Below, piece after piece: positions 10,248 through 47,108 of a stretch of 64,000 nucleotides of DNA; within the stretch, counting starts at the first letter, position 1; each line of letters starts with the position of its first letter. The DNA is from Prorocentrum cordatum (taxonomy: Eukaryota > Sar > Dinophyceae > Prorocentrales > Prorocentraceae): the NCBI GenBank assembly GCA_963575745.1, contig CAUYUJ010015282.1, positions 1,187,651 to 1,251,650 of the forward strand. Direction: 5' to 3'. The position numbers were made by a program, and so were the translations under genes. The notes beneath the pieces were generated by a model that worked only from the letters and a program-made list of their open reading frames with translations, was not told the DNA's origin and did no database searches.

Positions 10248-10885
10248 CGCATGAGACATCCTCGGAAACTGCTCCGAACGAGAAGGATGTTGGACACCCA
10301 AACAGGCAACCGTCTGAGACATCCCCCCAATCTGGGCGCGAATGGGCCTGTGATATACCCCCTGGCGCTCCCCCTTTGGGAGTACTGAAACCAGCGCCTC
10401 GCCTGAGACATCCTCGGAAACTGCTCCGAACGAGAAGGATGTTGGTAACCCAAACAGGCGAACCGCCTGAGACATCCCCTCAATCTTGGCGCGAACGGGC
10501 CCGTGATGTACCCCCTGGCGCCCCCCCGTTGGGAGTACTGAAACCAGCGCCTCGCCTGCCTGAGACATCCTCGGAAACTGCTCCGAACGAGAAGGATATT
10601 GGACACCCAAACAGGCGAACCGCCTGAGACATCCCCCCAATCTGGGCGCGAACGGGCCCGCGATGTACCCCCGGGCGCCCCCCGTAGGGAGTACTGAAAC
10701 CAGCGCCTCGCCTGAGACATCCTTACATCCTCGGAAACTGCTCCGAACGAGAAGGATGTTGGGCACCCAAACAGGCAACCGTCTGAGACATCCCCCCAAT
10801 CTGGGCGCGAACGGGCCCGTGATGTACCCCCTGGCGCCCCCCGTAGGGAGTACTGAAACCAGCGCCTCGCCTGAGACATCCTCAC
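10248..10885. repeat. ~152-bp tandem repeat, four copies plus a partial
   Basis: The anchor GAGACATCCTCGGAAACTG occurs at 10253, 10405, 10562 and 10722 (after a short duplication at 10714), with a final partial at 10873, giving a period of 152-159 bp. Each unit also holds GAGACATCCCC(C/T)CAATCT(G/T)GG followed by a GCGCGAACGGGCCCGTG core and GGGAGTACTGAAACCAGCGCCT. The core, reverse complemented, is shared with the satellite at 13700-23340. Confidence 0.95.
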
Positions 10886-13699: not shown

Positions 13700-15258
13700 T
13701 CCCCAGGCCCCTCGCGACGTAGCGGGTATGGCACTTGGGCTTCCCAGACTGGGGTTTTGAACGAAGTGTTGCACGGGTCCGTGCGCGCTTAGATTGGTGG
13801 GAGAATGTTTGTTCGCGGGAAGCCACGTGTCTATTGCCAGAGCCCCATGTTTGCCGCGATGTAGCAGGCATGGCGTTTGGGCCTGCCAGGGCGAGGGAAA
13901 GGCGACTTGGTGGGTTGCACTAGCCCGTTCACGCCCGCATGATTGGACATTCTCAGGCAGAGCGTCTGTTTTCGGGCAGTCGCTCATTTCTTTCCAAAGC
14001 CCCACGGCCATCGCGATGCAGCAGGCATGGCACTCAGGCTTTCAAAGGGGGGATGGACCTGGGGGGGGGGTGTCGTCGTGCCCGCTCGCGCTCAGGTAGT
14101 GTGACCTCATAGGTAGAACGCCTTGTTGTCGGAGAGGCGTGTACAGTCGGACCGAGGTAGAAGCTCGAGGCTGGCTCGCGGATGACACCCTAGGGTGTTT
14201 CGTGTGTGCTGGCTGCTCTTGTGTATCCTGGGGAGGGTACCATTGTATGTTATGTTCGTTTTGGCCGACGGAGGCTCTCATGTTCTTGGGGGGTGTTCTT
14301 CTGGCCCAGGTCCGATTGTATGCTTTTTTCAGAGCCGCGTGGCCACTTCGATGTAGCAGCCATGGCACTTGGGGCTCCCGAGGGGGGGGGGGGGGGCGCG
14401 CTCGCGCCAATATTGTTGGGACCTTCCAGGCAGAAGAGCGCTCGTGTTTGGGGGGGGGGTGGGGGGGCGCGCGTCACGTGTCAGAGCCCAAACGGTCACC
14501 GTGACGTAGCAGGCATAGCATTGTGGAGTTGGGGGTCAATCGCGCCCAGATTGGTGGAACCATTGCGGTGGAGCGCTTATTTTCGAAGCGGCATTTGACA
14601 GTTATGTCTTTCCCAAGCCCCAGGGTCGTCGCGATGTAGCAGGCTCGGCACCGCCCCCCCCCCCCCCCCCCCCCTCCCCCCCAAATGGGGGGTCGATTTG
14701 GGATGTTGCGCAGGCGCTACGATTGGTGGGACTTCTACCGTAGACGCACTAGCGGTGTGTTAGCTAACGGCGATGTAGGAACACCAAGTGCAGGAAGACG
14801 TGGTCCGTGGCCAAGCCGATTGTAGGAACGCGTGGTTCGTGTGTTCCTACAACTCGTTGTGTCGCTTTCGTTCGACACATTCGCACAGTTGAAATATAGG
14901 AAGCGTTTTTCGTGATTTCCTACAGTTTGTTTTGCGTGAGCTCGGTGTCACAAACACCAGATTCCCAACCGCACCGGTAACCAAGCACGCCGTTGGCGCG
15001 GCCTTGGTTCTAAGATAGCACACCGTGTTTCGGGGAAACATGTGTGTCTTCCCAGAGTCCCATGGTCACCGCGATGTAGCAGGCATAGCGCTAGGGGTCT
15101 CCCAACGGGGTGTCGACCGTGGACGGGTCCTTTCGTGCCCAGGTTCGCAGGGTTTTCAAGTAGAACCTTTGTTTGCGAGGAGACGCGTGCCTCTCTGCTG
15201 CAGAGCTCCATGATCATCTCGATGTAGCAGGCATGGTTGTTGCCCCCCCCCCACACAC
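13700..15258. repeat. ~150-bp satellite array, left part
   Basis: Diverged monomers are anchored by GATGTAGCAGGCATGGC at 13716, 13858, 14014, 14350, 14502, 14632, 15073 and 15220, mostly 130-156 bp apart or multiples of that. Between anchors runs GGGCCTCCCAGGGGG, an ACGGGCCCGTTCGCGCCCAG core, TTGGTGGGACC, then GCCACGTGTCT and CAGAGCCCC. Poly-G and poly-C runs occur at one fixed place in several monomers. The array is interrupted at 15259 by the retroelement and resumes at 22195. Confidence 0.85.
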
Positions 15259-15698
15259 ACACACTTGTGATGACTTAAGTTCGGAGTCACGTATTGATCA
15301 AGTTAATCGTCGTCGTCCCTTCCTCCAGTAGTGCCAGTCGGAGCGGTCCGCAGAGCGTAACTGAATGACCAACAACAAATGAAGCAAAAATACAGACGAA
15401 ATGTTTTCCTCAAGCAATCGTGCGAAAGGTGCCTGCGATGACAGAGGACCGAGAATCTCTGCGGCCCTGAGGCCTTGAGCGGCGCCCTAAACCCTCCGTC
15501 AACGGAGGCTCGAGAAGAAAGGCTATGGTGTGTGTGAGGCGGCAAGAGAAGGCAACTAGAGAAAACATGCAGGAAGACAACCTGAAATCTAGCTACGCAC
15601 ATACTGCATGTGTGGCTGGCCCCAAGACATCCCCTAGCTCGCAAGAGCCGAAAATGATGTCCTCACTGATTGTCAGAATTGAAACGCACACACACACA
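15259..15698 (-). repeat. 3' direct terminal repeat of the retroelement
   Basis: Downstream copy of the 440-bp repeat. It differs from the 5' copy by a handful of substitutions (for example around 15342, 15365-15372, 15412 and 15517) and no indels, so the two were made together or homogenised recently. It begins in (CA)n beside a C run. Confidence 0.95.
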
Positions 15699-15849
15699 AC
15701 CCGTCCAAACAGGTTCAGGGGAGGGAAAATGACAGCTGCGAAGATACTCAAGCCTCAGACGTGAAGCAGAGGCAGTCACACATCTGCAACAGGCATCGCT
15801 CAGAAGACAACGAAAAGGAGAAGCATACATAGGCATCGGGTTCACGGGT

Positions 15850-16269
15850 TTAGTGATGGAGCCACGCACAGAGCCCCACCAGGACGGGCTGCACCACGGC
15901 CGCGAACCAGGCCCATTTCTCACGATCATCGTACGCCGGAATGTTCAGAATGTGTGGAGTCTCAGCGTTCGGATCAGGAACACCAAGGTTACCCGTCACC
16001 AGAGAGCTAGCCCACGATCCAACTCCTGGCCACGTAAGGGCGGCAAATACGCGGAGCGCCAGGAAGGGAACGATGGCTACCACACGTTGAATAGAGAAAG
16101 TGAGAATCTCCTCTGCCGAAGTGCGAGCGAAGCCAATGAAGAGGCACGCCTGGTAAGCCGTCCAGCCGAAGATGACGAGGGGCACGAGCACACAGAAGAG
16201 GCGCACCATTGGCCAGACCACATCGTTCCAAGTTATCAGCAGGGAAGTGTCGAAGAAGGAAGCTTCCAT
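15850..16269 (-). CDS. Retroelement ORF, predicted membrane protein (139 aa)
   Basis: An ATG-initiated ORF on the element's sense strand, the last before the 3' terminal repeat. It starts 16 bases after the stop of the preceding ORF, in another frame. The protein has hydrophobic stretches at about residues 19-49 (LFCVLVPLVIFGWTAYQACLF), 60-80 (RVVAIVPFLALRVFAAL) and 122-137 (AWFAAVVQPVLVGLCAWL), so two to four membrane spans are likely. It is Trp-rich and ends in His-His. No known family is recognised, and no signal peptide, fusion or envelope features can be named. A membrane protein is unexpected in a Penelope-like element. It could be an element gene or a captured host fragment. Confidence 0.5.
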   Translation of the reverse strand: MEASFFDTSLLITWNDVVWPMVRLFCVLVPLVIFGWTAYQACLFIGFARTSAEEILTFSIQRVVAIVPFLALRVFAALTWPGVGSWASSLVTGNLGVPDPNAETPHILNIPAYDDREKWAWFAAVVQPVLVGLCAWLHH

Positions 16270-16287
16270 GGAAAACGGAGCGGGCGC

Positions 16288-16776
16288 TCATTGGAGGACG
16301 ATGTTTTGCTGGTCAGTGTGGGCCCACGAGCCGTTCTTCAGCAAGCCGGCATAGAGCATCTGGCCCACCTTGTTGAAGCTGCTGACGCTGGCAAGCTCGG
16401 CTTGCTGCATACCAAGGGCCTGAAGTTTGGTACCCCACTGTCCGACGGACTTGCATTCTGAAACCTGGGTCCACCACTCCGCGAAAGGAAGGGATGCGCC
16501 CTCGCTCATCGTGATCTCCTGGGCCAGCTGGGCCATGTTGGCGCGCGTGGCGCTGACCCCGAGCCGCTCCAGTGCGGAGCTGTGGGTGGCCGCGTTGATC
16601 GTGGAGCCGAACGTCGGGGTGTCATCGGCAGGCCCCTCCTCAGCGGGCGTGGATGCACGTGGTGGCATAGCTGAGGATCCTGGGCCCAGCGGAGACTCCG
16701 TCTGTCGCAAAGGCCTTGGTGGGGTAAGGAGGGCATCCCGATTCTGCTGCGGCATTCCCAACATGCGCTCCATCAT
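16288..16776 (-). CDS. Retroelement ORF, unknown (162 aa)
   Basis: Its ATG at 16776 overlaps the TGA of the preceding ORF (ATGATG/TGA overlap), so the two are one frameshift apart and may once have been a single reading frame. The product has a Pro/Thr/Ser-rich first half, followed by a compact region rich in Ala, Gln and Trp (AEWWTQVSECKSVGQWGTKL, about residues 100-125). No catalytic motif is seen. Its place between the RT tail and the membrane-like ORF suggests an accessory or structural role, but no function can be given. Confidence 0.45.
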   Translation of the reverse strand: MMERMLGMPQQNRDALLTPPRPLRQTESPLGPGSSAMPPRASTPAEEGPADDTPTFGSTINAATHSSALERLGVSATRANMAQLAQEITMSEGASLPFAEWWTQVSECKSVGQWGTKLQALGMQQAELASVSSFNKVGQMLYAGLLKNGSWAHTDQQNIVLQ

Positions 16777-17276
16777 CTCACGAGTCGCGCGGAGGAGATC
16801 TGCTGACCATGTTGATCAACTGTTGCCTGGATGCTGGTGATGCTGGCCTGCATCTGCTGGATCACTGGGTTGGACTCCAGGGAGCTTGCACCAGGCGCTG
16901 CACGAGAGCCTGATCCTGACGTCGGAGTGCCCGACCCAACGAGGCTGTGCAAGCGCTCCACCGTCTGCTGGAGCCTGGTATCCCCTGGAGCGTTGGTCTG
17001 CAGGACATCGGTCAGCGCCCTGACCAGGCCCCTTGCAGGTTCAGCCGCGCCCGGTGCTGCCGCCGTAGTCGAAGGCGCGGTCCAAGGTGGCGCGGGCGGC
17101 GCTGAGGCTGGGGGCGTAGAGCCGTTACCCTGGGGCTGGGGCTGCTGGGCCTGCGAGAGCGCGTGGCCCACCCGCGTGAGCTCACCCAGGGCCGCGACGT
17201 TGTCCATGACCGAGGTCATCTGGCCAAGCATGCCCGTGAAGCCTTGGCCGCCGCCACCGCCGCCACGATCATATCC
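16773..17276 (-). CDS. Retroelement ORF after in-frame TAG; Gly-, Gln- and Ala-rich
   Basis: This frame is continuous with the RT ORF: the RT ends at TAG (17277-17279) and the same frame stays open for 167 more codons. It begins with a Gly run (GYDRGGGGGGQGF) that continues the Gly/Arg/Tyr-rich RT tail (GGPYGGPYAPRYSGPRQRN). A helical, Gln-rich part follows (TSVMDNVAALGELTRVGHAL; QMQASITSIQATVDQHGQQ), which may form a coiled coil. The low-complexity linker crossing the stop suggests it was originally part of the RT polyprotein. Whether TAG is read through or is a lethal mutation cannot be told. Confidence 0.5.
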   Translation of the reverse strand, partial: GYDRGGGGGGQGFTGMLGQMTSVMDNVAALGELTRVGHALSQAQQPQPQGNGSTPPASAPPAPPWTAPSTTAAAPGAAEPARGLVRALTDVLQTNAPGDTRLQQTVERLHSLVGSGTPTSGSGSRAAPGASSLESNPVIQQMQASITSIQATVDQHGQQISSARLVR

Positions 17277-19673
17277 CTAGTTCCGCTGCCGGGGGCCGCT
17301 GTAGCGCGGGGCGTATGGGCCACCATAGGGACCACCAGCACTCCCAGACTTGCCACCCTTGCCGTGACCCTTGTTGCGCCACGAGCTGAACATCGGCACG
17401 GGTGAGGGCTGGGTCAAGCTCGAAGGCGCACTCAAGGGTGGACTCGATCCTTGGTTTGGAAGGCTTTGAGAGAAAAAGGCTACAAGCAAATCGGGTGAGG
17501 TTCGCAGACTTCTGGAAGTGTAGAGTACGAGTTGAATCGCTGTCTGGCTTATCTCCATGAACTTAGAAGGTGGTGCTATAGAATGCCAGACCCTTCGAAT
17601 ATGCTTCTCATGATAACCCAACCGAAGATACATCAAAACATCAGCAGATACCAAGACCAACCAGTTAAACGCACACACTTTTAAGTTGCGCCATCGTTGC
17701 AAGCGTCCGCGCAGTTCGGCTCGGTGCTGTTGAAGTTGACTAGGGGTGGACGAGCCTAGAAAAGGAAGGATCGACTGCTTAGCGAGGGGCGTGATGTTGC
17801 CTGTGAACGCATATGCCTCATTCTTGTGTATGATATACGTGTGAGCCGAAGTGAGGGTAAGGAATATGGTGGCCTCGAGGTATGGAACGGTGACCGTGCG
17901 TGCATTAGGATATACGGAGTCGGTGAAATCGAACTTTACCGTGCAGCCATAGACGTGCTGGACCATACGTTTAAGACACCGACTGCAGCACACCTTGGAC
18001 GCTAGTATGATGTCATCCACATATCTGCCTGTAGCCACATACCGACGACGCCTGGGGAACTTCTTGTCAGACTGGAATTCCAGATCACTCAGCAGCGTGT
18101 GCAATACGGCCCCGCTAAGGGGGCCTCCGATCGGGATGCCCCGAACTTGTTGAACGACGAGGCCACAGATAACAAACAATATCATACCTAGGAAGCCCTC
18201 AAGAGCCCGACGGATACTTTTAAGAAACCACACAGTACGGTCCCACAGGCGCTGATCCGCTCCACCACCGAAGAAGACGTGAGATCGCTGAGTACGCATG
18301 ACCGTGACACAGCGTTGTTTTTTCTCCGACTCCAGCTGGTCGAGCAAGCGGTCGAGGCAATCGTAAATGCGGTCGAGGGCGATGGCTTCGTAAGCCTGGC
18401 CCGCATCCCCGACCACTAGACCTGGGCTGAGCATGCAGAGGCCACATCCTCGGCAGCAGCACGGTTCGCCCGACGGGTGAGAAGCCAGCTGAGTGAACTG
18501 CGCCACGAAGCTGGGCACTGCCGTGTCTAAAGACGTGAAAGCCCAAACTGGATACATTTGGTTCGCCAGGAAGGTGAGAGCACGGCTGAGGGAGCGATAC
18601 AACATGCGGGATGGAAGGCGGACAAAGCTGCATATGTTACGAAAACAACTGTGTTGAGATTTGGTACATTTATGACGACCTCCATCGGGTACCGAAGCCC
18701 CTCCATCCCAGCACTCCAACTTACTCGTACTGTAAACGTAGGGAAGATGTCCTTGGTTAAGTGCCCCCTCCCCACGTGCTCGCATAGACTTGGGGATGGT
18801 GTAGTCATAGAGCAGGCGATACCAAGATAGCATAGCATCAACCGACGTGTTAACCAGACGCCATCGATCATGGGCATGACGAAGCATACAAAGCCACCGA
18901 GCTAGCTGGTATAAGCTGTTGACCCGCCACAAAGTGTTTGGGTCCTTATCTTCAACCGTAAAGCAGGTCCCGCAGGGCCCTCCAGAGGCTCGGTCCTCAA
19001 ATTGTTTGCGAGTCTCCGTTGCGTCACGATAGCGTCGTTCGTCATGGGTGGGTTGCGGAGTGGGGCGTTGACGAGGGGGGCGATACGGCGGGTAGACGTT
19101 CCGATCCAGGCCTTGGGAGCCAAGCCAGCGTTTACATGATAACATAGTAGTGTCACGATATGGGGTAGATTGTGTGAGTAAAGGTATGCGACCGTTAAGA
19201 GGGACTCGCTGCACATCATCACCACGAGCGGCAGCGGCAAAGTCCGACATGCGGGGGCGACCGAGCTCCGTGAACTCAGTCTGGCGAAAGGCTCGCGTGA
19301 TGTCAGTAAAACGCTTGCGTATTGTGAGCACAGGACGAGGCATCAGACGCATAGAGCGGACCGCCCAGTTGGCCCAAGCTGGCCTGGTTGGGCGGGCCTG
19401 CTGGATGACCTGAGCCAGCCATCGCCGAACACGTTGGGCCTCCCAAGCGTCATCAACTTTAATAATCTTTTCACCTGGCTTGGGAAGACCAACTGAATGC
19501 AAGCGCGAAGCAAGTGCAGACCTCACTCGAATTCGGTCCATCCAGTGGGGAAAAAGAGTACTGAACTCCCACAAGGTGTAGAGGTAGTCTGTGCCGAACT
19601 TACGCCGGCGACGCACGAGATCCCAATCGACTTCATTGGTGGATAAAGCAAGCCATCTAAGGAGTAGGAGCAA
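17277..19673 (-). CDS. Reverse transcriptase of the Penelope-like element
   Basis: About 800 codons open. RT landmarks in order are: FTVEDKDPNTLWRV (residues 238-251), a Cys cluster CCCRGCGLC (405-413), GDAGQAYEAI with the motif A Asp (422-431), QVRGIPIGGPLSGAV (motif B, 509-523), GRYVDDIILAS (motif C, 549-559) and YLEATIFLT (598-606). The YVDD box, the PIGGPLSG form of motif B and the YLE motif separate it from the FADD-type LINE RTs elsewhere in the window. The tail is rich in Gly, Tyr and Arg. The open frame starts after a TGA at 19713-19715 and overlaps the GIY-YIG ORF in another frame; the likely frameshift is near 19665-19680. The first in-frame ATG is at residue 45. It catalyses cDNA synthesis for transposition. 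Confidence 0.85.
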   Translation of the reverse strand: MLLLLRWLALSTNEVDWDLVRRRRKFGTDYLYTLWEFSTLFPHWMDRIRVRSALASRLHSVGLPKPGEKIIKVDDAWEAQRVRRWLAQVIQQARPTRPAWANWAVRSMRLMPRPVLTIRKRFTDITRAFRQTEFTELGRPRMSDFAAAARGDDVQRVPLNGRIPLLTQSTPYRDTTMLSCKRWLGSQGLDRNVYPPYRPPRQRPTPQPTHDERRYRDATETRKQFEDRASGGPCGTCFTVEDKDPNTLWRVNSLYQLARWLCMLRHAHDRWRLVNTSVDAMLSWYRLLYDYTIPKSMRARGEGALNQGHLPYVYSTSKLECWDGGASVPDGGRHKCTKSQHSCFRNICSFVRLPSRMLYRSLSRALTFLANQMYPVWAFTSLDTAVPSFVAQFTQLASHPSGEPCCCRGCGLCMLSPGLVVGDAGQAYEAIALDRIYDCLDRLLDQLESEKKQRCVTVMRTQRSHVFFGGGADQRLWDRTVWFLKSIRRALEGFLGMILFVICGLVVQQVRGIPIGGPLSGAVLHTLLSDLEFQSDKKFPRRRRYVATGRYVDDIILASKVCCSRCLKRMVQHVYGCTVKFDFTDSVYPNARTVTVPYLEATIFLTLTSAHTYIIHKNEAYAFTGNITPLAKQSILPFLGSSTPSQLQQHRAELRGRLQRWRNLKVCAFNWLVLVSADVLMYLRLGYHEKHIRRVWHSIAPPSKFMEISQTAIQLVLYTSRSLRTSPDLLVAFFSQSLPNQGSSPPLSAPSSLTQPSPVPMFSSWRNKGHGKGGKSGSAGGPYGGPYAPRYSGPRQRN

Positions 19674-21760
19674 ACATGCTTGGTCATATATGGTCCGTGC
19701 AGGTGGCGACCGTCAGCATGCCGAGCGAGGAGGACATCATAAAGATCTCGGAACCTATGCTGGTGAAGGTGTTGCCATCGGTGTCGTGCAGCGAGGTGTG
19801 CCGAGAAACCTAAACGTCGTGTGCACTGGGCATCGATACATCGATCATACCATGCTTGTTGAAGTACTGTGTGCTCATGTGCGACGGGTATACGTACACG
19901 GCGTTGCGCACGACGACGGCGTGCTCGAGGATGAGATCGACATCGAGCCCGAAGACGTCCAAGATGAGGGTTCGGTAAATTGTTTGCCTCGGGGCGACTA
20001 TACGCTATACGTGCGCTCTCTAGGGCGTGCGCACGAGATGTATGTGCAAGCGCCACAAAGAACATGAGGAGCCACTTCTGACAGCCAGGGGCCAAACTGA
20101 GGTACCTGCTTAGCTCCTTTGTGGGGGCCCCTTGCGAGACACATCTAAGCCCGCGAAGATGCTCGCGGAATCGACCGACTCCTCCCGAGATGGCCGGTGA
20201 GCCACGGGGCAGCGCCCCTTGACCTATGTAGAGCCCATGAGAGCCCAGTTGGTATATGAAGCTGAGGTCGTGGGGCCCGTGGCCCGAGTTCTGGATCGGG
20301 TCCTGGACGCACCGAGCCTGGAGGAAGACGAACCCGAATAACTCCAAAGCCTGGCAGAGGTCCGCTTCTCCTGGGCGTCCGAACGCAGACTGCAACACAG
20401 GTGGGAGACAATGGCAGAGGCGTCTGGCTCGGTCCCGTGCTTTTCGGCCTCCAGTGAAGAGGCGGCGGAGCCGACAGATAGTTAAGCACGTTGTGAGAGC
20501 AAGCGCGAGTACACTGACATGAGACGACACCCCTGAGACCATCGCACACTCCAGAGCTTCCCGTTGCAGAATGTGGACGGCATCAATGAACGTCTCCGAT
20601 GGAAGAGGACAAAGAGCTTGCCACAGAGCTGCCGAAAATAAGGAGGCCACGGAGGACGAGTACGGCTTGTGCGAGCGAAAGTTAGAGTAGACGGCCAGCT
20701 CCGATGACCAACCTGCAACAGCCTGGATGTCCCGTGCCAGCGCAGATAACAGTTGTGTCCCACCAAGGGTAGTAACTTGCGTCCGTTGAGCCATATGTTG
20801 AGATATCCGTTGATCTGATCTCGACTGCAAGGTACCCGATGCTTGAGCAGAAGTAACACATAGGAAGAGAACGAGCAACCACATACCAGTCCGCCACAGG
20901 GTAAGTGTACAGAGACGACGTGGCGACTGAACCTGGGCATGCCTCGAGGAGCAGCAACCCAGGATTTGCGTTCTAACGCCAGACGTTCTGACACTGGTCC
21001 GTGGAGTAGGCGGGAGGCGATGTGGCGACGGTACCTGGGGCAGCCTCGGGGAGCAGCTGCCCAGGATTTTCGTTCTAACACCACGCGTTCTGACACCTGT
21101 CCGTGACGTAGACGTGAGACGGTGTGGCGACGAAACCTGGGACGGCGTCGAGGAGCAGCTGCCCAGGATTTGCGTTCTAACACCTTGCGTTCTAACACCT
21201 CCAGTGAAAGACGCAGACCAGGAAGATAACCAGGAAGGAGGGTGCATAACGTTGAACTTGCCAGTAGAGAAGTACACAGTCAATCGAACAGATCCCATCA
21301 TGATAGAGCAGACCAAGAGGATGCCCATAAGGTACATGGCCGCGCCAGGGCCTGTCCGTGAGGAAGCGTGCCGTAGAGCTCGTAGAGTACGAAATAGAGC
21401 ACGTAGATGGTTTAATGAACCACGGAGGTTATGAAATTGACCGCGTAGAGTATGAAATGAACCACGCAGGTCGTGAAATGCAACACGTAGGTTACGAAAT
21501 TGAGCACGTAGAGTATGAAATGAACCACGTCGATGGTGAAATGCAACACGTAGATGGTGAGATTGAGCACGTAGAGTAGGAAATGAACCACGCAGGTGTG
21601 GAAATGCAACACGTAGATTATGAAATGAAGCACGTAGGTTATGAAATGAAACACGTAGGTTGTGAAATCGACCGAAATGAACTGAGACACGTAGGTTATG
21701 GATGTCTGGGTGTGGCACACGAAGTCCGAAGATGAACGCTCCACGCTCCCAGAAACACAC
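19523..21760 (-). CDS. GIY-YIG endonuclease ORF of the Penelope-like element
   Basis: The endonuclease domain lies at about residues 500-597 of the open frame (genomic 19970-20262). It shows FIYQL, YIGQG eight residues later, the catalytic Arg in GRFREHLR (R530), the metal-binding Glu in HALESARIAY (E581) and the closing RPEANNLPN. All key positions are present. Before it come a hydrophobic segment (142-165), three copies of a ~33-residue repeat with GVRTQILGSC (about 187-285) and another hydrophobic stretch (MWLLVLFLCVTSAQA, 293-307). Residues 1-141 hold no Met, so translation may begin at M142 (21337), leaving the heptad-like FHNLRVS repeats in the 5' leader. The enzyme would nick target DNA to prime reverse transcription. 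The downstream end overlaps the RT frame. Confidence 0.8.
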   Translation of the reverse strand: MCFWERGAFIFGLRVPHPDIHNLRVSVHFGRFHNLRVSFHNLRASFHNLRVAFPHLRGSFPTLRAQSHHLRVAFHHRRGSFHTLRAQFRNLRVAFHDLRGSFHTLRGQFHNLRGSLNHLRALFRTLRALRHASSRTGPGAAMYLMGILLVCSIMMGSVRLTVYFSTGKFNVMHPPSWLSSWSASFTGGVRTQGVRTQILGSCSSTPSQVSSPHRLTSTSRTGVRTRGVRTKILGSCSPRLPQVPSPHRLPPTPRTSVRTSGVRTQILGCCSSRHAQVQSPRRLCTLTLWRTGMWLLVLFLCVTSAQASGTLQSRSDQRISQHMAQRTQVTTLGGTQLLSALARDIQAVAGWSSELAVYSNFRSHKPYSSSVASLFSAALWQALCPLPSETFIDAVHILQREALECAMVSGVSSHVSVLALALTTCLTICRLRRLFTGGRKARDRARRLCHCLPPVLQSAFGRPGEADLCQALELFGFVFLQARCVQDPIQNSGHGPHDLSFIYQLGSHGLYIGQGALPRGSPAISGGVGRFREHLRGLRCVSQGAPTKELSRYLSLAPGCQKWLLMFFVALAHTSRAHALESARIAYSRPEANNLPNPHLGRLRARCRSHPRARRRRAQRRVRIPVAHEHTVLQQAWYDRCIDAQCTRRLGFSAHLAARHRWQHLHQHRFRDLYDVLLARHADGRHLHGPYMTKHVCSYSLDGLLYPPMKSIGISCVAGVSSAQTTSTPCGSSVLFFPTGWTEFE
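20905..21205 (-). repeat. ~100-bp tandem repeat inside the GIY-YIG ORF, three copies
   Basis: Units share GGAGCAGC(A/T)(A/G)CCCAGGATTT, GCGTTCTAAC and GGTGTGGCGACG-like segments. They stay in frame and encode repeats of GVRTxILGSC followed by an SPHRL segment, suggesting selection or a recent in-frame amplification. Confidence 0.85.
21385..21720 (-). repeat. 21-bp tandem repeat in the retroelement leader
   Basis: About 15 units of 21 bp, read on the minus strand as TTCATAACCTACGTGNNTCAT. If translated they give heptads FHNLRVS; there is no Met before 21337, so the array may be untranslated. Confidence 0.9.
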
Positions 21761-22194
21761 TTGTGATGAGTTAAGTTCGGAGCCACGTATTGATCAAGTT
21801 AATCGTCGTCGTCCCTTCCTCCAGTAGTGCCAGTCGGAGCGGTCCGCAGAGCGTAGCTGAATGACCAACAACAAATGAAGCAAGAAGACCGACGAAATGT
21901 TTTCCTCAAGCAATCGTGCGAACGGTGCCTGCGATGACAGAGGACCGAGAATCTCTGCGGCCCTGAGGCCTTGAGCGGCGCCCTAAACCCTCCGTCAACG
22001 GAGGCTCGAGAAGAATGGCTATGGTGTGTGTGAGGCGGCAAGAGAAGGCAACTAGAGAAAACATGCAGAAAGTCAACCTGAAATCTAGCTACGCACATAC
22101 TGCATGTGTGGCTGGCCCCAAGACATCCCGTAGCTCGCAAGAGCCGAAAATGATGTCCTCACTGATTGTCAGAATTGAAACGCACACACACACA
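21755..22194 (-). repeat. 5' direct terminal repeat of the retroelement
   Basis: Upstream copy of the 440-bp repeat at 15259-15698. On the element strand it begins with (TG)n then CGTTTCAATTCTGACAATC, and ends near AAGTGTGT. Being a pair of direct repeats, they fit the pseudo-LTRs of Penelope-like elements. Confidence 0.95.
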
Positions 22195-23340
22195 CACACA
22201 CCACCCCACCCCCCACCCCACCCTCCCCCCCCCCCTCCTTCAGGGGAGGGGGGGAGGGTCGACCCAGAGTGCTGCAAGTGCCGGCTTTTTGTTCCAGAGA
22301 TTGGCGGGCCTCTCGGGTATAACCTTGGTTCTCGTAGAGAAAGACACGGGTGTCTTGCCAGAGCCCCGTGACCCTCGCGGTGCAGCAGGCAGGGTATTCG
22401 TGCCCAGGGTGGTCGACCTTGCTGGGTGTTGACAGGCCCGTTCGCGGCCAGGTGTGTGAAACCTCTCAAATCGAATGCTTGTTTTCGGGTTGGGTACGTT
22501 TCTTCGTCCAGGGCCCCATGAACGGTGTAGCAGACATGGCAGTCAGCACCCCCAGGGGGTCGACCTAAGGTGTGGCACGTGCCCGCGCTGGCCCAGATTG
22601 GTGAGCCCCCCGTGGTGAACGTTTGTTACCGTGGATGCACGTGTGGTTTTCCAGAGCCCCGTGGCCTTCACGGGGTAGCAGGGGGGGGGGGGATTTTGGC
22701 TGTTGCACATGCTTGATCGCGGCCAGACTTAAAGGGACCTTGTCATATATGATGTAGCGGGCATGACGGTCGCGTCTCCCAGGGGGGGGAGGGGGGGGGG
22801 GGGAGGGGAGGCGACCTGGGGTGTTGTACGGGCCCCAATTGGTGGGACTTCTCACGTAGAACGCCCGTTGCCGAGGAGACGCGTCTCTGTTGTCAGAGCC
22901 CCGTGACCACCGCGTTGAAGCAGGCATGGCATGTAGGCCTCCAGGGATCGACCTGGGGTGTTCCTCGGGCTCGTTCGCGCCAAGATTGTTGATGATCTGG
23001 AGTGGAGAGCGCCTTTTCTGGGGAGCCACGTGACTCTTTCACAACTCCGTGGTCACCGTGATGTAGAAGAAATGGCGTTCGAGCCTCCTGTCGATCTGAG
23101 GAGTTGCACGGGCAAATGGCGTTCGAGCCTCCTGTCGATCTGAGGAGTTGCACGGGCCCGTTCGCGCCCAGAGTGGTGGGACCTCTCATGCGAATTGTTT
23201 TTTCGAGTCAGTAAACAACCTTTTCCCACAGCCTCATGATCGTCGCGATGTAGCAGGCGGGGCACTTGGGCCTCCCAATGGAGAGCGCCCATGGGGTATG
23301 ACACGGGCCCGTTCGCGCCCAGGTCATGGGTTCCAGACGC
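22195..23340. repeat. ~150-bp satellite array, right part
   Basis: Continues the array cut by the retroelement. GTAGCAGGCATGG-type anchors occur near 22381, 22525, 22673, 22752, 22912, 23059 and 23247, with ACGGGCCCGTTCGCGCCCAG cores at 23151 and 23304. A 47-bp exact local duplication lies at 23068-23160 (CGTTCGAGCCTCCTGTCGAT twice). Confidence 0.85.
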
Positions 23341-38605: not shown

Positions 38606-39934
38606 GGCGTATTGGAAGTGTCTTCGAACGTTTTGGTGGGCTCTTGGGCCTTGCGGGCGGGCGGGCGGCGCTCCGCCCGCCCGCGCGCAGGGCCCAAGAG
38701 GGGGTCCAAGACGTCTCTCGGAGCCATCTTGGAGGAGATCGATCAACGAACGGGGGGTTCCTAAATTTCAGCCCCCCCCGTCAGGAGCCACGATCCTCGT
38801 GAGGGGTGTCGAATTTTAGCCCTCCCAGGGGTCGATCTTGGACGCTCTGACCGATCGCGGCCCCCCTGTCCAGGTCAGTGGGGAGGGGGTAGGGGGAGGG
38901 GTAAACCCCTCCCCGAAGGGGAGGAAGGAGGGGTGGAAGAGGAAACGCTCTAAACCACCGACGCCCAGAGGGCTGGTGGGACTTTCGGAGATCCGCGCGG
39001 ATCGCCTGGATCGGTGCTGGACCCCCTTCCCTGGCTCGCGGAGCAGCAGTGGTGCCAGAGGCGCCGCCAGGGGGGCAGTGCGGACCTCCAAAAGTGTATG
39101 CTCACGCCGTTTGTTTTTCCTCGAAAGGAAGCCCCGACCCCACCCCCGCACGTGCAGCCGCTGCCAGAAGGGGGGGGACATGTTTTCTGATTCCGTTTAT
39201 TCATTTTGTTGCCAGAGTGTTCGGTTCTTGCTGCCTCGTGATCTGGGAATCGCCTGGGTTGGGCCATGCATGTGGCCCGCAGCATCGCCACCCTCCGGAG
39301 GTCTCCTGTCGAGCCCTCTCTTCATTCCTGAGCCTCCCCCTCCCGCGCCTGCTCCCGGGACAGGCGCCTCTCGCCCTGAGTTTTGAAACGGCCAACATTT
39401 TCTGGTGGAGGTCGGCCCAGTGGCACCTTCGGGACACTTTTGCGCATCTAGTGATTTTGCGGGAGCGTCATCTGCTGTCTGGGGAAAGGTCTTCACAAGA
39501 CCAAGAAATAACAAACCCCAGGGTGGGACCGTTCGCTGCTCGCCGTCGGAGGGTGGGTGTGGGGGTGGGCGGGGTGCTCACGGTGCATGTGTTTGTTTGT
39601 TTTTGTGTCGAGCTCGTGACGCGCTCGCTCGGGACCCGGCTGTCCTGTATGTTTTCGACCCCTGCCCGCCCACTCCTGGGTGCGGGCGTGTTTTTCTGGC
39701 GGATGACCGCGGACACTCCTCTTTGGCCATGGCACACGCCCGCCCGACCGACCCCGGTTTCGAAGCCCAGGCTGGTTTGGTCGGGGTGCGCCAGACTTTG
39801 TCGCGCCTTGCATTGGCGCGTTCACGGCTATCGGCAACCGCGGTTGGGTCGACATACCCATCGCTGGGGTGGTGCGACCAGTGGGCGGGCTGGCGCATGT
39901 GGAGCGCCGTGTTTTTTTCTGCGCGAGGTGAACT
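38606..39934. other. Gene-free stretch, probably intronic or intergenic
   Basis: Holds a palindrome GATCCGCGCGGATC (38989-39002) inside a block that resembles 11152-11200. The + frame is open through much of 39049-40020, but the reading has no recognisable domain. Confidence 0.4.
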
Positions 39935-40133
39935 TGCCCCTCCTCCTCCTCTCCTCCTCCTCGTCCTCCTTCTCCTCCTTCTCCTCCTCCTCCTCTTCCT
40001 CTTCCTCCCCCTCCTCCTTCGCTCCCAATGACGACGGCGACAACGACGACGACGACGACGACGATGATGACGACAACGCCGACGGCGACGGCGACCGCGA
40101 CGGCGACGGCGACCGCGACGGCGACGGCGGCGG

Positions 40134-40165
<32 letters not shown>

Positions 40166-40620
40166 GCGATGACGACGACGACGACGTCGGCGTCGGCGTC
40201 GGCGTCGGAGCAGGCGCATCGGGTGAGGAACGCCGCAACGCTCCTGGGCCAGGCCTTGCGCGGCCTCCGCGCGCGGTGCAGGACTTGCCCTTCGGCGGGG
40301 GACCGGGCCTCGTCGTCCTTGATCGTCTTCGTTGCTCGTCGATCCCCGTCGTCATTGACGCCGTCGACCCTCGTCGTCGAGCGTCGTCGACCGTCGTCGT
40401 CGATCGTCGTCGAGCGTCGTCATCGGCGTCGTCGGCAAGAGCATCCCGCTTGCGGAGGTCGTCGTCGCCGATCGTCGTCGTCGTCGTCGTCGTCGCCTTC
40501 GGTCTTCACTGCCGTCGTGGCTGTCGCCGTCGTCGCCGATCATCGTCGTCGCCGTCGTCGTCAATCTGCGATCGTCGTTGTCGTCGATCCGCGGTCGTCG
40601 ATGTCGTCGTAAGGGGCAAG
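39935..40620. repeat. TCC tract followed by GAC/GTC trinucleotide tracts
   Basis: TCC (39935-40020), GACGAC (40030-40200), then GTCGTC (40340-40615). The switch from GAC to GTC on the same strand gives a large imperfect inverted repeat that could fold. Confidence 0.9.
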
Positions 40621-40820
40621 GGTGGAGAAGGAGGAGGAGGACGACGACGACAACGAGATGTTCAGTGGTTGTCTGAGGTTGTCGATTGTCTCCCGAAGTT
40701 TTCGGAGCATTTCGTCGAATTCTCGATGGTTTGCGGGGGTGCCCAGACGTTTCCAAATTTGGAGGGTCGCGAGTCGCACCGCAGGTCGAGGAGAAGAGGG
40801 AAGAGGCGCGCACGGTGCAG

Positions 40821-41175
40821 GATCCTGCTCTCCGGCACGCCCGTGCAGAACTCGCTCCAGGACCTCTGGTCCCTGATGGACTTCGCACAGCCGGGTCTCC
40901 TGGGCAGCCAGGCGACCTTCTCGAAGCACTTCGCGGAACCCATCGCGCAGGGCAGCGTGCGGGGCGCCGACGCCTTCGCGGCGGGGCTGAAGAGGCACCT
41001 GTCCGAGCAGCTCTGGCAGCTGGTCAGCCCGCACCTGCTGCGCCGCACGAAGCTGAGCGTGGGGCTCCTCCCCGCACCGGGGCCCGGCGGCGGCCCGAGC
41101 GCTGCGCTGGCCGCCGCCGGCGACCCGGAGGGCGCCGGCGGGCCCCTGCCGCCCAAGCTCGAGACGGTGATCCGC
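40821..41175 (+). CDS. SNF2-family ATPase/helicase, exon with motif III
   Basis: The frame reads RILLSGTPVQNSLQDLWSLM, then DFAQPGLLG...FSKHFAEPIAQG, LWQLVSPHLLRRTK, a Gly/Ala/Pro-rich insert and LPPKLETVI. This is the end of the first RecA-like lobe of SNF2 remodelling ATPases; the PGLLG and PI.QG spacing is closest to the ERCC6/Rad26-like group as I know it. The exon begins after a GTGCAG acceptor at 40820, within a codon. Its 3' end (41170-41190) is uncertain because donor sites in dinoflagellates vary. The ATP-binding and DEGH-box exons are not found upstream, so they lie outside recognised sequence. The product would be a nuclear DNA translocase in repair or transcription. Confidence 0.75.
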
Positions 41176-44100
41176 GGGGCCGCCGCCGCCTCCGCCGACC
41201 TACCGCCCGCCCCCGCCGCAAGGGCCCCCCCCCCAAGGGCTCGTCGAGGCGTCCCTGATCGCAGGCGATGTTTCTCCCCCAGCCCCCGGCTTTTCGACGA
41301 AAAATGAGGCCGCTCAGAAAAGGAGGGAAACCGTGGGATGCACGCCATGGCGGGCTATTCGGACGCACCCCTATCGAGGGCGGACGCCCACCCATCGTAT
41401 ATCCTAGGGTTGGGCCCCAAATTTCAAGTCCATTCGAAAACCGCCCAAAGCCTGGGATAGGAGTCGACATATCCCCTGTTACCTGAAAAGAGCGCGGCGG
41501 CGGGCCGCTGCTGTTCCGAGCCTGGGCCTCCGGGGGGCACCTGTGACCCTCAGCACTTGGTGCCTGGGGCAGAAAAGAGGCGCAGCTCCAGGGGCACAGG
41601 CTGCGGGAAAGTCATGGCGTCGCATGTTGTCTGCGTCCTCCTCCTCCTCCTCCTCCTCGCCCTCCTCCTCCTCCTCCTCCTCCTCCTCCTCCTCCTCCTC
41701 CTCCTCCTCGTCCTCCTCTCCCTCGCCTCTCTCCTCCCCTCCCTCCTCCGCCCCCCCTCCCCGCCAGCGTGCCCCGGCGCCACGCGGCGGGGCCGCGGAT
41801 ATGGCTGATGCCCGCCGAGCGCCAGCTCACAGCGTACCGGGTCCCCGCCCCCGCCGACCCCCCCCCTTTTCAGAGGCAGCGATACGGGGGTTGGGCTGAG
41901 GGGGGGATGCATCGACCCCCAATCGCCCATTGACCATTGATCGTCGATACGGGCCCGATGGCCCACCCGCCCAGGACCGTACGGATTCGCTCTCGGTGGC
42001 CTATCGCCGATTCATCAGCGATGTCTCGCCGACTCCAGGATGATGTTTTCCCCCCTGCGCCAGTCCCCCCCCGATCGTTGCCCCCCCCACCCCCCGCTTT
42101 TGGCGCGCGCCGGCACGGCGTCCGCCCTGCGCGCGCGGTGCCGACTGGGAGTTGTGCGGGGAGCTCGCCCCGAGACTCGGCGACGTCGAGCCTGGGCCTT
42201 CTCTTCCCTCTCGGCTTCAAGAGGCCGCTTCTCGGTCTGCAGCGGGAAGAGCCCGTCCCCGGGAAAGGGGTCGCGAGGCACGGGGCCTCAAGATTCGAGG
42301 GCATCGAGTCGTCGGAGGTTTTGAGGTGGGCGCGTGGGGGCAGCGACAGCCTGGCAACCGTTGAATTGTCCTCGGCTGGTCTCGGATCCTAGCTGCCCTG
42401 ATCCGCCCGTGTTGAAACGCAGCACGTAACTACCGTGTTCGTAACGTCCTTGTTAATTAACACGCTGGGTGTTGACTCAACGTGTTGGCCCACGTTTTGG
42501 CGCACGTATCTCGCGCCAAACGTACGGTCTCAATCTCCGTGTTGAGCTCCGTGTCAGCACGCTCGTGTTGTGTGTTGCGTTGTTATCGGGACAGCTAAAC
42601 CTTTGATGCCCCAGAGAGTCTGCATGGAGCTTAGGACAGCCTCGGATGATCTCGCGCGCAGCGCGGGCGGCTAGGTGAGGGGGGGGCAGAGAAGGTTCCC
42701 CATACTGTCGAGTTCTTGATGGCAGCGATCCAAAATTTGGTGACGGTGTCGACCCAACACATGCCCTGGATGCGAAATGCTGAAGTCTGTGATCTTCCTT
42801 TTGGCGATGGCGCCTTTGGTGAACCAATAAGTGCCCGCGGTGCGAAATCGAAATGTGGCAAGGGGACGACATAATATTCGCTCGCCAGCGGAAACCTAGG
42901 TTTCGCATTGTTCAATTGTGGCAGTGGCGTCCCCAAGAACTACCCGCGGAACAAACTAAGCGAACTATAAGAAAGTAGGAGTGGGTTCGACACCAGTGGG
43001 GAGGAGTGAGGAGAAAGAGAATGGACGTGAGGGGGGGCGAGGGAGGGAAGGACAGAAGGAAAAAGAACACACATTGTTGTGCTGGCTTCGCTTGGCGCAG
43101 GGCGTGTCAAAGCGGAAGCGGGTATGAGTCGACTTGAGCCAGATCGACTGGCGGGGTGGCCTCTGTCTCACGTGCGGGCGCAGAAAAGGGGTTGAAGGTG
43201 CAGCTGGATGTGCATTGAGATTATCCAGAAGGAGGGGCCGGCGGAATGTCTGAGTGATGTGATGGTGTGTTGGATTTGCTGCCTTTTATGTATGTTTTGT
43301 GCGTTCGCTTGCTCGAAGGTCATCTTGGACAAAATCGGTATCGTCAGAGACGCCATGTCCAAGGCAGAGCATCGTTCTCTCCCTCTCTCTCTCTCTCTCT
43401 ATTTGCTTATAGCTCTATCTCTCTGTAAACATGTATATAGGTAGATCGTTCCTTATGCATCTCTCTCTCTCTCGTTCTCTGCAACGTTTGCCTTCTTCCC
43501 CCTCTGTGCCCATCAGTCCATCATAGCGTTTCTTCTCCTCGCCATGTTCATCTCCCCCGTGCTGTTATGTTCGGCTCGCCGCCTTCTCTTCCACATCTGT
43601 TCTCCTCCCTCGTCGCTCCTCCGTTCTCCCTCCTCGCTCATCCCCCCTTCTGTCGGCGGCGAGCGAGGGGGGGGAAGTAAGAAGGAGAAGGCCTTTTCAG
43701 AAGGCCGCGGGACTTCTCAGAAGCCCTCGTGCCCCTGATCCTCCCCCCTCGTGCTCCCTACTCTTCATCCTCTGCTCCCTTCTCCCCTTGCCTACTCGTC
43801 CCTCTTCCTGATCCTGGAGAAGTTCACTCGTGTCCTCCTGAACAGGCGAAGCGCGACGGCCGGTCAGGCTGGTCCCTCGGCTACCCCAGGAGGGGTGGGG
43901 GAGAAAGAGGGAGGGAAGAGGAGTAGGATGAGAGGTGGTCTGATGTGTCGGTGGTTGTCGGGAGCTCTTCTTTTCCGTGCTGTTTTTAGAATCATCCGGT
44001 TGGTTTGTTGGAGGTGCCCCGAGCTCTGGCCAAAAACAGGCAAGACCAGGAACATGTCAGCGTTTTCCCTCTCGTCGCTCCGCCCTCCCGGTCAGCACTG

Positions 44101-45760: not shown

Positions 45761-45833
45761 TCCGTCGCCATTGGGTCAAGCCGGATTAGGCTGAGGTGTT
45801 AATCTCGGCATCGGTCAAGCCTGCGGCGTCAAG
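45761..45833 (+). other. Spliced-leader relics upstream of the kelch gene
   Basis: TCCGTCGCCATTGGGTCAAG (45761-45780) matches the dinoflagellate SL with two substitutions and a 2-base deletion. CATCGGTCAAG (45809-45819) and GCGTCAAG (45826-45833) look like shorter, older copies. The start codon of the kelch gene follows 15 bases later. Confidence 0.65.
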
Positions 45834-45848
45834 CCCCAGGCGGCGGCC

Positions 45849-47108
45849 ATGGGCAGGCGCTACGCAGCCGCGGATGCTTTCGCAGACCCAGCGGTGTGCC
45901 TGGAGGTCGCAACCTTTTTTGGTTCTGTGGAGGCCTTCGCCACCCTCTCCGCTTCCACGCTGCCAGCGTGTCGACAAGCCTCGCGGCTGCTGCGGATGCC
46001 ATACTTGTACGCGCTTGTCGGTGGTGGGTTGAGGTGCTCATCTGCAACGCCCTGGCTGGGATCGTGCTGGTCGGGTGTGCGCATCAATCTTGGGACAGGC
46101 AGGCCCGAGAGGCTGCCGCCCACTCTGAACGGTGCCGCCAGGGTAGCAGGCGCTGTGCGCGTCGTGGAGGCCGATGGTCACGTGTTCGTCCTGACAGAGC
46201 TTATTCTAAGGCACAAGAAGGGCTTTGCGCTGGAGGCCTTCGACCCCCGCAGGCGCACGTGGGAGGAAAGGATCCCGAGGCGTCAGGGAGAGCCCGACCT
46301 GCTCGTGCAGGGTGACGGCAGCCTCTTTCTGTCCTACAACTCCGAAGTCGAGGGGCCCAGGGGCAGCACCTTGGAGCTCAACTTCTGCCGCTACGACGTC
46401 CTGTCCGGGGAAGCCGAGGCCCTGCCCCCCATCCCCACGCTGCGCTGCGGGGGCGGTCACTGCGTGCTGGAGGGCGCGCTGTACGTGGCTGGGGGCTACA
46501 GATTCCCCGACGGTGCGGGAGCGCTGCCGGCGCTCGCGGACTTCGACCGCTTTGTCCCCGCCAGGCGCGCTTGGGAGCGGCTCCCTCCGATGCCCACGCC
46601 GAGGTTGCTATGCCGGGCCGTGGCGTCTGGCGGCTGCGTCTACACCGTGGGGGGCCTGGGGCCGCAGGGTTGGAGCGCGTTGGAGCGGTTCGATCTGTTG
46701 GAGGGCGCCTGGACTTCGCTGGCGGCTCTGCCGACGCCCCGCAGCCCGTCTGCGCAGGTGCTGTCATGCCAAGGTTCTATATATGTCTTTGGCGCCGCCG
46801 CCGGCACGCCCTCCAGGGAGCTGCTGGTGGAGCGCTTCGACCCCGGCGCGGGGCGCTGGAGCCGGCTGCGGAGCCTCGACGGCCACGAAGGTGAATCTGG
46901 TATCGAATCGGGAGTGAAGGCGGTGTGCTACCAGGACCGCGTGTTCACCATGCGCGCGCAGGCCGGGGGGCGCGCGAAGAGCGCCCGCGAGCCGCTGCAG
47001 GTTGTCGTGGAGGAGTACTGCGAGCGGCGGAGCGCAGACCGCGAGCTCGCCAGGCTAACGGCCCTCCATGGGCATTCGGGCCTGGCCGTGGCCACTGGGC
47101 CGGAGTGA
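45849..47108 (+). CDS. Kelch-repeat beta-propeller protein
   Basis: Intact, intronless 419-aa ORF. About five or six kelch blades run from residue 97 to 370. The clearest are ALYVAGGYRFPDG...RAWERLPPMPTPR (210-252), CVYTVGGLGPQGW...GAWTSLAALPTPR (263-298) and IYVFGAAAG...GRWSRL (311-340), each with the expected Gly-Gly (or Gly-Ala) and Tyr/Trp spacing. Residues 12-60 (CLEVATFFGSVEAFATLSAS...) may be a degenerate F-box-like helical domain, which would make it a substrate receptor, but that is weak. No signal peptide or membrane segment. GC-rich codon use throughout. SL relics upstream indicate a retrogene. The 3' end is embedded in a local duplication (47082-47698). Confidence 0.85.
   Translation: MGRRYAAADAFADPAVCLEVATFFGSVEAFATLSASTLPACRQASRLLRMPYLYALVGGGLRCSSATPWLGSCWSGVRINLGTGRPERLPPTLNGAARVAGAVRVVEADGHVFVLTELILRHKKGFALEAFDPRRRTWEERIPRRQGEPDLLVQGDGSLFLSYNSEVEGPRGSTLELNFCRYDVLSGEAEALPPIPTLRCGGGHCVLEGALYVAGGYRFPDGAGALPALADFDRFVPARRAWERLPPMPTPRLLCRAVASGGCVYTVGGLGPQGWSALERFDLLEGAWTSLAALPTPRSPSAQVLSCQGSIYVFGAAAGTPSRELLVERFDPGAGRWSRLRSLDGHEGESGIESGVKAVCYQDRVFTMRAQAGGRAKSAREPLQVVVEEYCERRSADRELARLTALHGHSGLAVATGPE

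Follow-up and report, generated by a model that had tools for sequence, protein, structure and literature searches.

A GIY-YIG-first retroelement, probably of a divergent Penelope-like lineage, in a Prorocentrum cordatum contig

In this work we analysed a window of 64,000 nucleotides (the whole stretch of DNA from position 1,187,651 to 1,251,650, forward strand, of contig CAUYUJ010015282.1, assembly GCA_963575745.1, Prorocentrum cordatum) and describe an element on its minus strand in which a GIY-YIG endonuclease domain precedes a reverse transcriptase (RT). The element spans positions 15259-22194 and has a direct repeat at each end (Table 1). Both repeats are exactly 440 bp long, as a preliminary description of this DNA had proposed, and in an alignment they are identical at 429 of 440 positions (97.5%); each has (TG)n at both its start and its end. 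According to two papers, canonical Penelope-like elements (PLEs) have a pseudo-LTR (long terminal repeat) architecture, which is also seen in this element (PMC11167929; PMC3846280). The flanks outside the repeats are G/C-rich and (AC)n tracts that belong, on both sides, to an array of related units, and because the ends sit within simple sequence a target-site duplication is not definable. The related units, which contain CGATGTAGCAGGCATGG, lie at 13700-15250 and 22320-23280, and the element interrupts their array. This single copy is flanked by (GT)n/AC tracts, which may reflect a bias of insertion towards microsatellites; no second copy was seen, and the rest of the window yielded no truncated copies.

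The RT open reading frame (ORF) was searched against 5.8 billion proteins, and 7995 candidates were scored. Four relatives were found: P0001 (1037 amino acids), which stops short of motif B, P0002 (1100) and P0003 (1363), which cover motifs A, B and C, and P0004 (474), which is RT only. In all three relatives that cover both domains (P0001, P0002 and P0003) the GIY-YIG domain is followed by the RT in a single continuous frame. The GIY-YIG ORF of the window is 57%, 34% and 29% identical to these three proteins, respectively (BLASTP). Against each of them the match breaks off at residue 701, the point from which the RT frame carries on, and this places a frame change near 19700 in the window copy; the three relatives are continuous at this point. 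The existence of one-frame relatives therefore indicates that the order GIY-YIG before RT is real and that the window copy is broken. The preliminary description had placed the nuclease upstream of the RT in one element, and this holds; it had also considered that the two might come from separate elements, which is contradicted by the three one-frame relatives.

Table 1. Features of the element (positions in the window)
Feature	Position	Strand	Basis or remark
5' direct repeat (pseudo-LTR)	21755..22194	-	440 bp; starts within (GT)n tract on minus strand
Tandem 21-bp (63-bp) repeats after 5' repeat	21376..21690	-	probably untranslated
Three 102-bp tandem repeats in leader	20912..21217	-	tandem-repeat finding
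Long ORF holding GIY-YIG domain	19523-21793	-	ORF list
Conserved N-terminal region	20263..20884	-	hydrophobic start MWLLVLFLCV, then stretch common to P0001 and P0002; alignment
GIY-YIG endonuclease domain	19979..20263	-	motifs FIYQLG, YIGQG, R in GRFREHL, E in ALESARI, terminal N
RT ORF	17280..19712 (stop 17277-17279)	-	motifs A, B, C
RT DKD motif	18959-18927	-	motif inspection
RT Cys/His cluster	18713-18645	-	invariant C...C....H (C334, C349, H354)
RT CxxC before motif A	18455-18444	-	motif count
RT motif A DAGQAYEAI	18413-18381	-	motif inspection
RT motif B GIPIGGPLSGAVL	18140-18102	-	motif inspection
RT motif C GRYVDDIIL	18029-18003	-	motif inspection
RT CxxC after motif C	17987-17976	-	motif count
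RT PYLE motif	17888-17859	-	motif inspection
In-frame stop codon, RT/tail boundary	17277..17279	-	P0003, sole relative reaching there, reads through without stop
Polyprotein tail, part 1	16773..17276	-	Gly-rich, then coiled-coil-like by eye; P0003 1036-1187, E 2.7e-12
Polyprotein tail, part 2, other frame	16288..16815	-	WW..QWxTKxQxxG region conserved; P0003 1199-1359, E 2e-13
Separate small ORF, putative membrane protein	15850..16269 (ATG at 16269)	-	hydrophobic segments by hydropathy
3' direct repeat (pseudo-LTR)	15259..15698	-	440 bp; ends CACAAG(TG)n

In P0003 no stop follows the RT, and the frame continues into a tail, Gly-rich and coiled-coil-like, with matches to two ORFs located downstream of the RT in the window. 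P0003 is the only relative to reach the tail, and it is continuous where the window copy changes frame a second time, near 16800. The window copy therefore reads as one polyprotein gene that is interrupted, relative to P0003, by two frame changes and an in-frame stop; it had been called nearly intact, which these three interruptions contradict. Programmed recoding may lie behind the frame changes and the stop of this one copy. Three ORFs had also been reported downstream of the RT: two of them (17276-16773 and 16815-16288) turn out to be a single polyprotein tail, and only the third (16269-15850) stands as a separate ORF. Its codon usage is similar to the usage in the RT ORF and the GIY-YIG ORF, with a score (0.061) above those of all 300 base shuffles (largest 0.058). 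The same test does not favour part 1 of the tail in its own frame (0.009, against 0.048 in another frame) and is therefore a weak one. No family match, no relative and no significant match in P0003 were found for this small ORF. At the other end of the element, the 21-bp repeats had been taken for a leader of 140 codons. They show neither an excess at the third codon position (0.257/0.414/0.337) nor an in-frame codon-usage signal, so that a coding leader is not supported, and the conserved protein of the relatives starts near window positions 20884-20830. The region preceding the GIY-YIG domain (P0002 residues 64-247, window about 20884-20300) is predicted to be helical; it is conserved, has no Pfam match, and is among the better-predicted portions of an otherwise poor structure model.

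The GIY-YIG domain is recognised by neither Pfam nor NCBIfam. Its identity rests on catalytic residues that do not vary, with weak backing from the predicted fold. All four alignment rows have the residues Y, YxG, R, EH, E and N, which include the catalytic Arg and Glu, in agreement with the complete domain described previously. The structure model of the domain is of low confidence, but its topology appears to be right, and its structural matches are weak but specific. For comparison, PLE references were collected with a bait sequence, which retrieved 4364 proteins with E of 0.001 or less. From the 120 listed, 101 carry YIG.T and 98 carry both RT motifs, 18 entered the RT profile, and a PLE GIY-YIG profile was made from the 60 of 100 references with a YIG.T.R motif. 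No cysteine lies between GIY and YIG in any of the four rows of our family, whereas 97 of the 101 canonical PLEs with YIG.T have C.C or C..C there.

The RT ORF has only a weak Pfam RVT_1 match (E 0.0018, under the gathering cut-off). Its motif C is of the YVDD type, as first described, and motifs A and B are plain as well. PLEs have a DKG motif ahead of the RT core, and in this family DKD stands at a corresponding distance. At low threshold the alignment with PLEs is colinear well beyond the core: VEDKDPNTLW faces ADKGNATV and FRNICSF..LPSRMLY faces LRPIVS..GSPTY.LAK, followed by motifs B and C, PYLE facing PFLD, and LGYHEKHIRR facing NGY....I. Several intervals are also close to those of PLEs. 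From DKD to Y.Y.T.K there are 68-69 residues (4/4), against 68-72 from DKG to LYGLPK in 11 PLE rows; motifs B and C are separated by 38 residues, against 36 in 13 PLE rows; and motif C is 48-49 residues from PYLE/FLD, against 42-44 in 14 of the 18 PLE rows. This colinearity outside the RT core and these PLE-like intervals speak for an affinity with PLEs. The interval between motifs A and B is longer: 89 residues in the three members that span it, compared with 50-63 in 12 rows of canonical PLEs, and three group II intron rows have 50. Such a lengthening, by approximately 39 residues, is what an insertion-in-fingers domain would be expected to cause. Finally, a CxxC lies directly before motif A in all five family members and another directly after motif C in the three that reach this point, and neither pair occurs in any of the 98 animal PLE references that carry both RT motifs. 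Together with the invariant Cys/His cluster upstream, these pairs suggest zinc sites in the RT.

Comparison of RT profiles by hhalign ranks PLEs first (80.5%, score 49.2, 18 rows), before group II introns (38.6, three rows), the LINE-like RT (long interspersed nuclear element) present elsewhere in the window (26.9, one row) and telomerase (25.9, two rows); the whole-alignment comparison with PLEs gives 61.9%. The segment following motif C scores 21.5 against PLEs, beyond all 200 column shuffles, narrowly (maximum 21.1). In a topology test neither grouping of the family with PLEs (p-AU, approximately unbiased, 0.324) nor with group II introns (p-AU 0.133) was rejected. The position of the nuclease, the direct repeats and the resemblances of the RT lead us to propose that this retrotransposon probably belongs to a divergent Penelope-like lineage, with a GIY-YIG domain ahead of the RT in one polyprotein closed by a Gly-rich, coiled-coil-like tail, and that it would work in the manner of a PLE. 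With canonical Penelope/Poseidon-type PLEs it shares the order of the RT motifs, in part their spacing, and the positions of DKG/DKD, PFLD/PYLE and NGY/LGY; unlike them, it has no C-terminal nuclease, no cysteines before YIG and no short A-B interval.

Several results weigh against this assignment. When the PLE profile is reduced to three rows (20 draws), its scores range from 26.9 to 55.2, with a middle of about 41, and overlap the group II value, so that the profile score alone is not decisive. The B to C interval is 32-40 in group II introns and hence not specific to PLEs. The segment after motif C scores as high against group II introns (21.8, over eight columns at motif C) as against PLEs (over 15 columns with the GY motif), the segment before motif A, which includes DKD, is equalled by 12 of 200 shuffles, and the score of the family GIY-YIG against that of PLEs is reached by 7 of 200 shuffles. 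Trees were built on 75 columns, with 14 and then 8 of the 18 PLE rows and the two telomerase rows, and the 8-row tree also without P0001 (28% filled) and the LINE-like RT of the window (branch length 10). They keep the family apart from PLEs, with telomerase as a weak neighbour (74/56) on long branches. Both structure models are poor (mean predicted local distance difference test score, pLDDT, 43.8 and 44.7), and no RT is among the best 50 matches listed for the long one. Lastly, the element is known here from one insertion, with neither an empty site nor other copies seen.

The element could be simply a divergent but ordinary member of the Naiad/Chlamys group, most likely of Chlamys, comparable to those of other protists and of brown algae, and we regard this as quite possible, if short of probable. 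This reading and that of a separate lineage, discussed below, concern the ancestry more narrowly and overlap with the Penelope-like assignment. As in Naiad and Chlamys, GIY-YIG precedes the RT in one ORF, the repeats are of the pseudo-LTR kind, the flank is simple sequence and the A-B interval is longer, as an insertion-in-fingers domain would make it. Nuclease-first PLEs are not known to carry a canonical hammerhead ribozyme, and here the 10 matches up to E 5 in 15000-22600 did not include a hammerhead, nor did Rfam at its gathering threshold match anywhere in the window. The absence of cysteines from GIY to YIG sets the element apart from canonical PLEs and is shared with Chlamys, which is not known to have CCHH-type cysteines there, a likeness that concerns the cysteines only. 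A hammerhead is reported for a Penelope-like element of Anolis (PMC11167929), and Chlamys PLEs are reported in Ectocarpus (PMC12477816), likewise a TSAR (stramenopile-alveolate-rhizaria) protist, but a stramenopile.

The family differs from this group in the linker. A short linker with a CxC was reportedly named by Craig et al. in 2021 as characteristic of PLEs with an N-terminal endonuclease (Naiad, Chlamys). None lies between GIY-YIG and DKD of P0001, P0002 or P0003, nor in the pre-DKD part of the window RT ORF and of P0004, and inspection by eye of the GIY-YIG ORF of the window showed none either. The sequences depart from the described nuclease-first PLEs also by a CxxC ahead of motif A and another behind motif C and by the long Gly-rich tail, neither of which is known to us from Naiad or Chlamys, and by the additional putative membrane ORF. 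Since the linker CxC was tested and is absent, and since both groups were compared by description only, we do not file the element as Naiad or Chlamys. The placement with these clades in the preliminary description thus stands for the nuclease-first order, the pseudo-LTR-like repeats, the simple-sequence flanks and the lack of LTR-type domains by the RT, and it is not supported by the linker, which has no CxC, or by the RT tree, which gives no firm placement.

Rather unlikely, in our opinion, is that the family represents a retroelement lineage of its own, close to the split between telomerase and PLEs, with an N-terminal GIY-YIG gained independently. The tree leaves the family outside PLEs and weakly with telomerase, CxxC pairs next to motifs A and C occur in none of the PLE references with both motifs, and motif B, GIPIGGPLSGAVL, resembles GIPQGLNISGVLC of Tetrahymena. 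In the Tetrahymena and Candida rows, motif A (DxxxxYDxI/DxxxAYEAI) and motif B (G(I/V)xxGxxxSG) resemble those of the family, and the A-B interval looks long. However, the tree has long branches, 75 columns and two telomerase rows, the profile score with these two rows is just 25.9, and the DKD, PYLE and GY motifs are PLE-like and at PLE-like spacing. Telomerase is not known to carry a nuclease or to be flanked by repeats. A fuller version, in which an undescribed lineage near that split would possess its own N-terminal GIY-YIG, zinc-binding CxxC pairs flanking motifs A and C of the RT, a gag-like tail together with a membrane protein, seems doubtful to us; it would mean that a nuclease was fused ahead of a telomerase-like RT on more than one occasion.

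Were the element an LTR retrotransposon or DIRS-like, the 440-bp repeats would be true LTRs, and this would account for two direct repeats flanking a coding region. This reading is very improbable: protease, RNase H, integrase and tyrosine recombinase have no Pfam match up to E 10 in five window ORFs and the four relatives, the repeats terminate in TG tracts and not in TG..CA, and motifs B and C (GIPIGGP, RYVDD) are not of the LTR type. That a GIY-YIG fragment and an RT fragment, which are in different frames in the window, became adjacent by chance can be set aside, as the two share one frame and keep the same order in P0001, P0002 and P0003, unless all three are chimeric.

For the Penelope-like lineage that we favour, a cycle can be proposed. 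The 5' repeat would drive a transcript, to which the polyprotein would bind, and the GIY-YIG domain would nick a GT/AC-rich microsatellite. The TG ends of the repeats suggest that the transcript end pairs with the nicked TG microsatellite: the exposed TG-rich 3' end would pair with (UG)n and prime reverse transcription at the target. The direct repeats would be left by a partial second copy in tandem, while the tail, the possible zinc sites and the membrane ORF would have roles in the same cycle. The terminal TG tracts make microsatellite-primed integration directly testable. Among mobile elements, PLE-type RTs are regarded as the nearest relatives of telomerase, and a nuclease-first lineage with a new arrangement of cysteines within the RT and a long tail would widen the knowledge of this group. 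According to the 2025 paper on Ectocarpus, PLEs were unreported from TSAR before (PMC12477816); if the host is a dinoflagellate, PLE-like elements would be extended to alveolates.

Other features were observed in the window. A scan for spliced leaders gave no site (0). The host appears to be eukaryotic, to judge from the Kelch and SNF2 domains and the second, LINE-like RT given below. A second RT fragment lies on the plus strand at 468-1229 (RVT_1, E 1.3e-12) and is LINE-like by its motifs DVNAAF, GIKQGCPMSG and FADD. A 157-bp unit is repeated four times at 10252-10873 (91% matches), and a perfect 44-bp tandem duplication is located at 23070-23157. An open frame at 38905-41307 has a partial SNF2 domain (E 2.5e-16) near its 3' end, preceded by long simple repeats, and a Kelch-repeat protein gene is present at 45795-47108 (E 3.6e-20).

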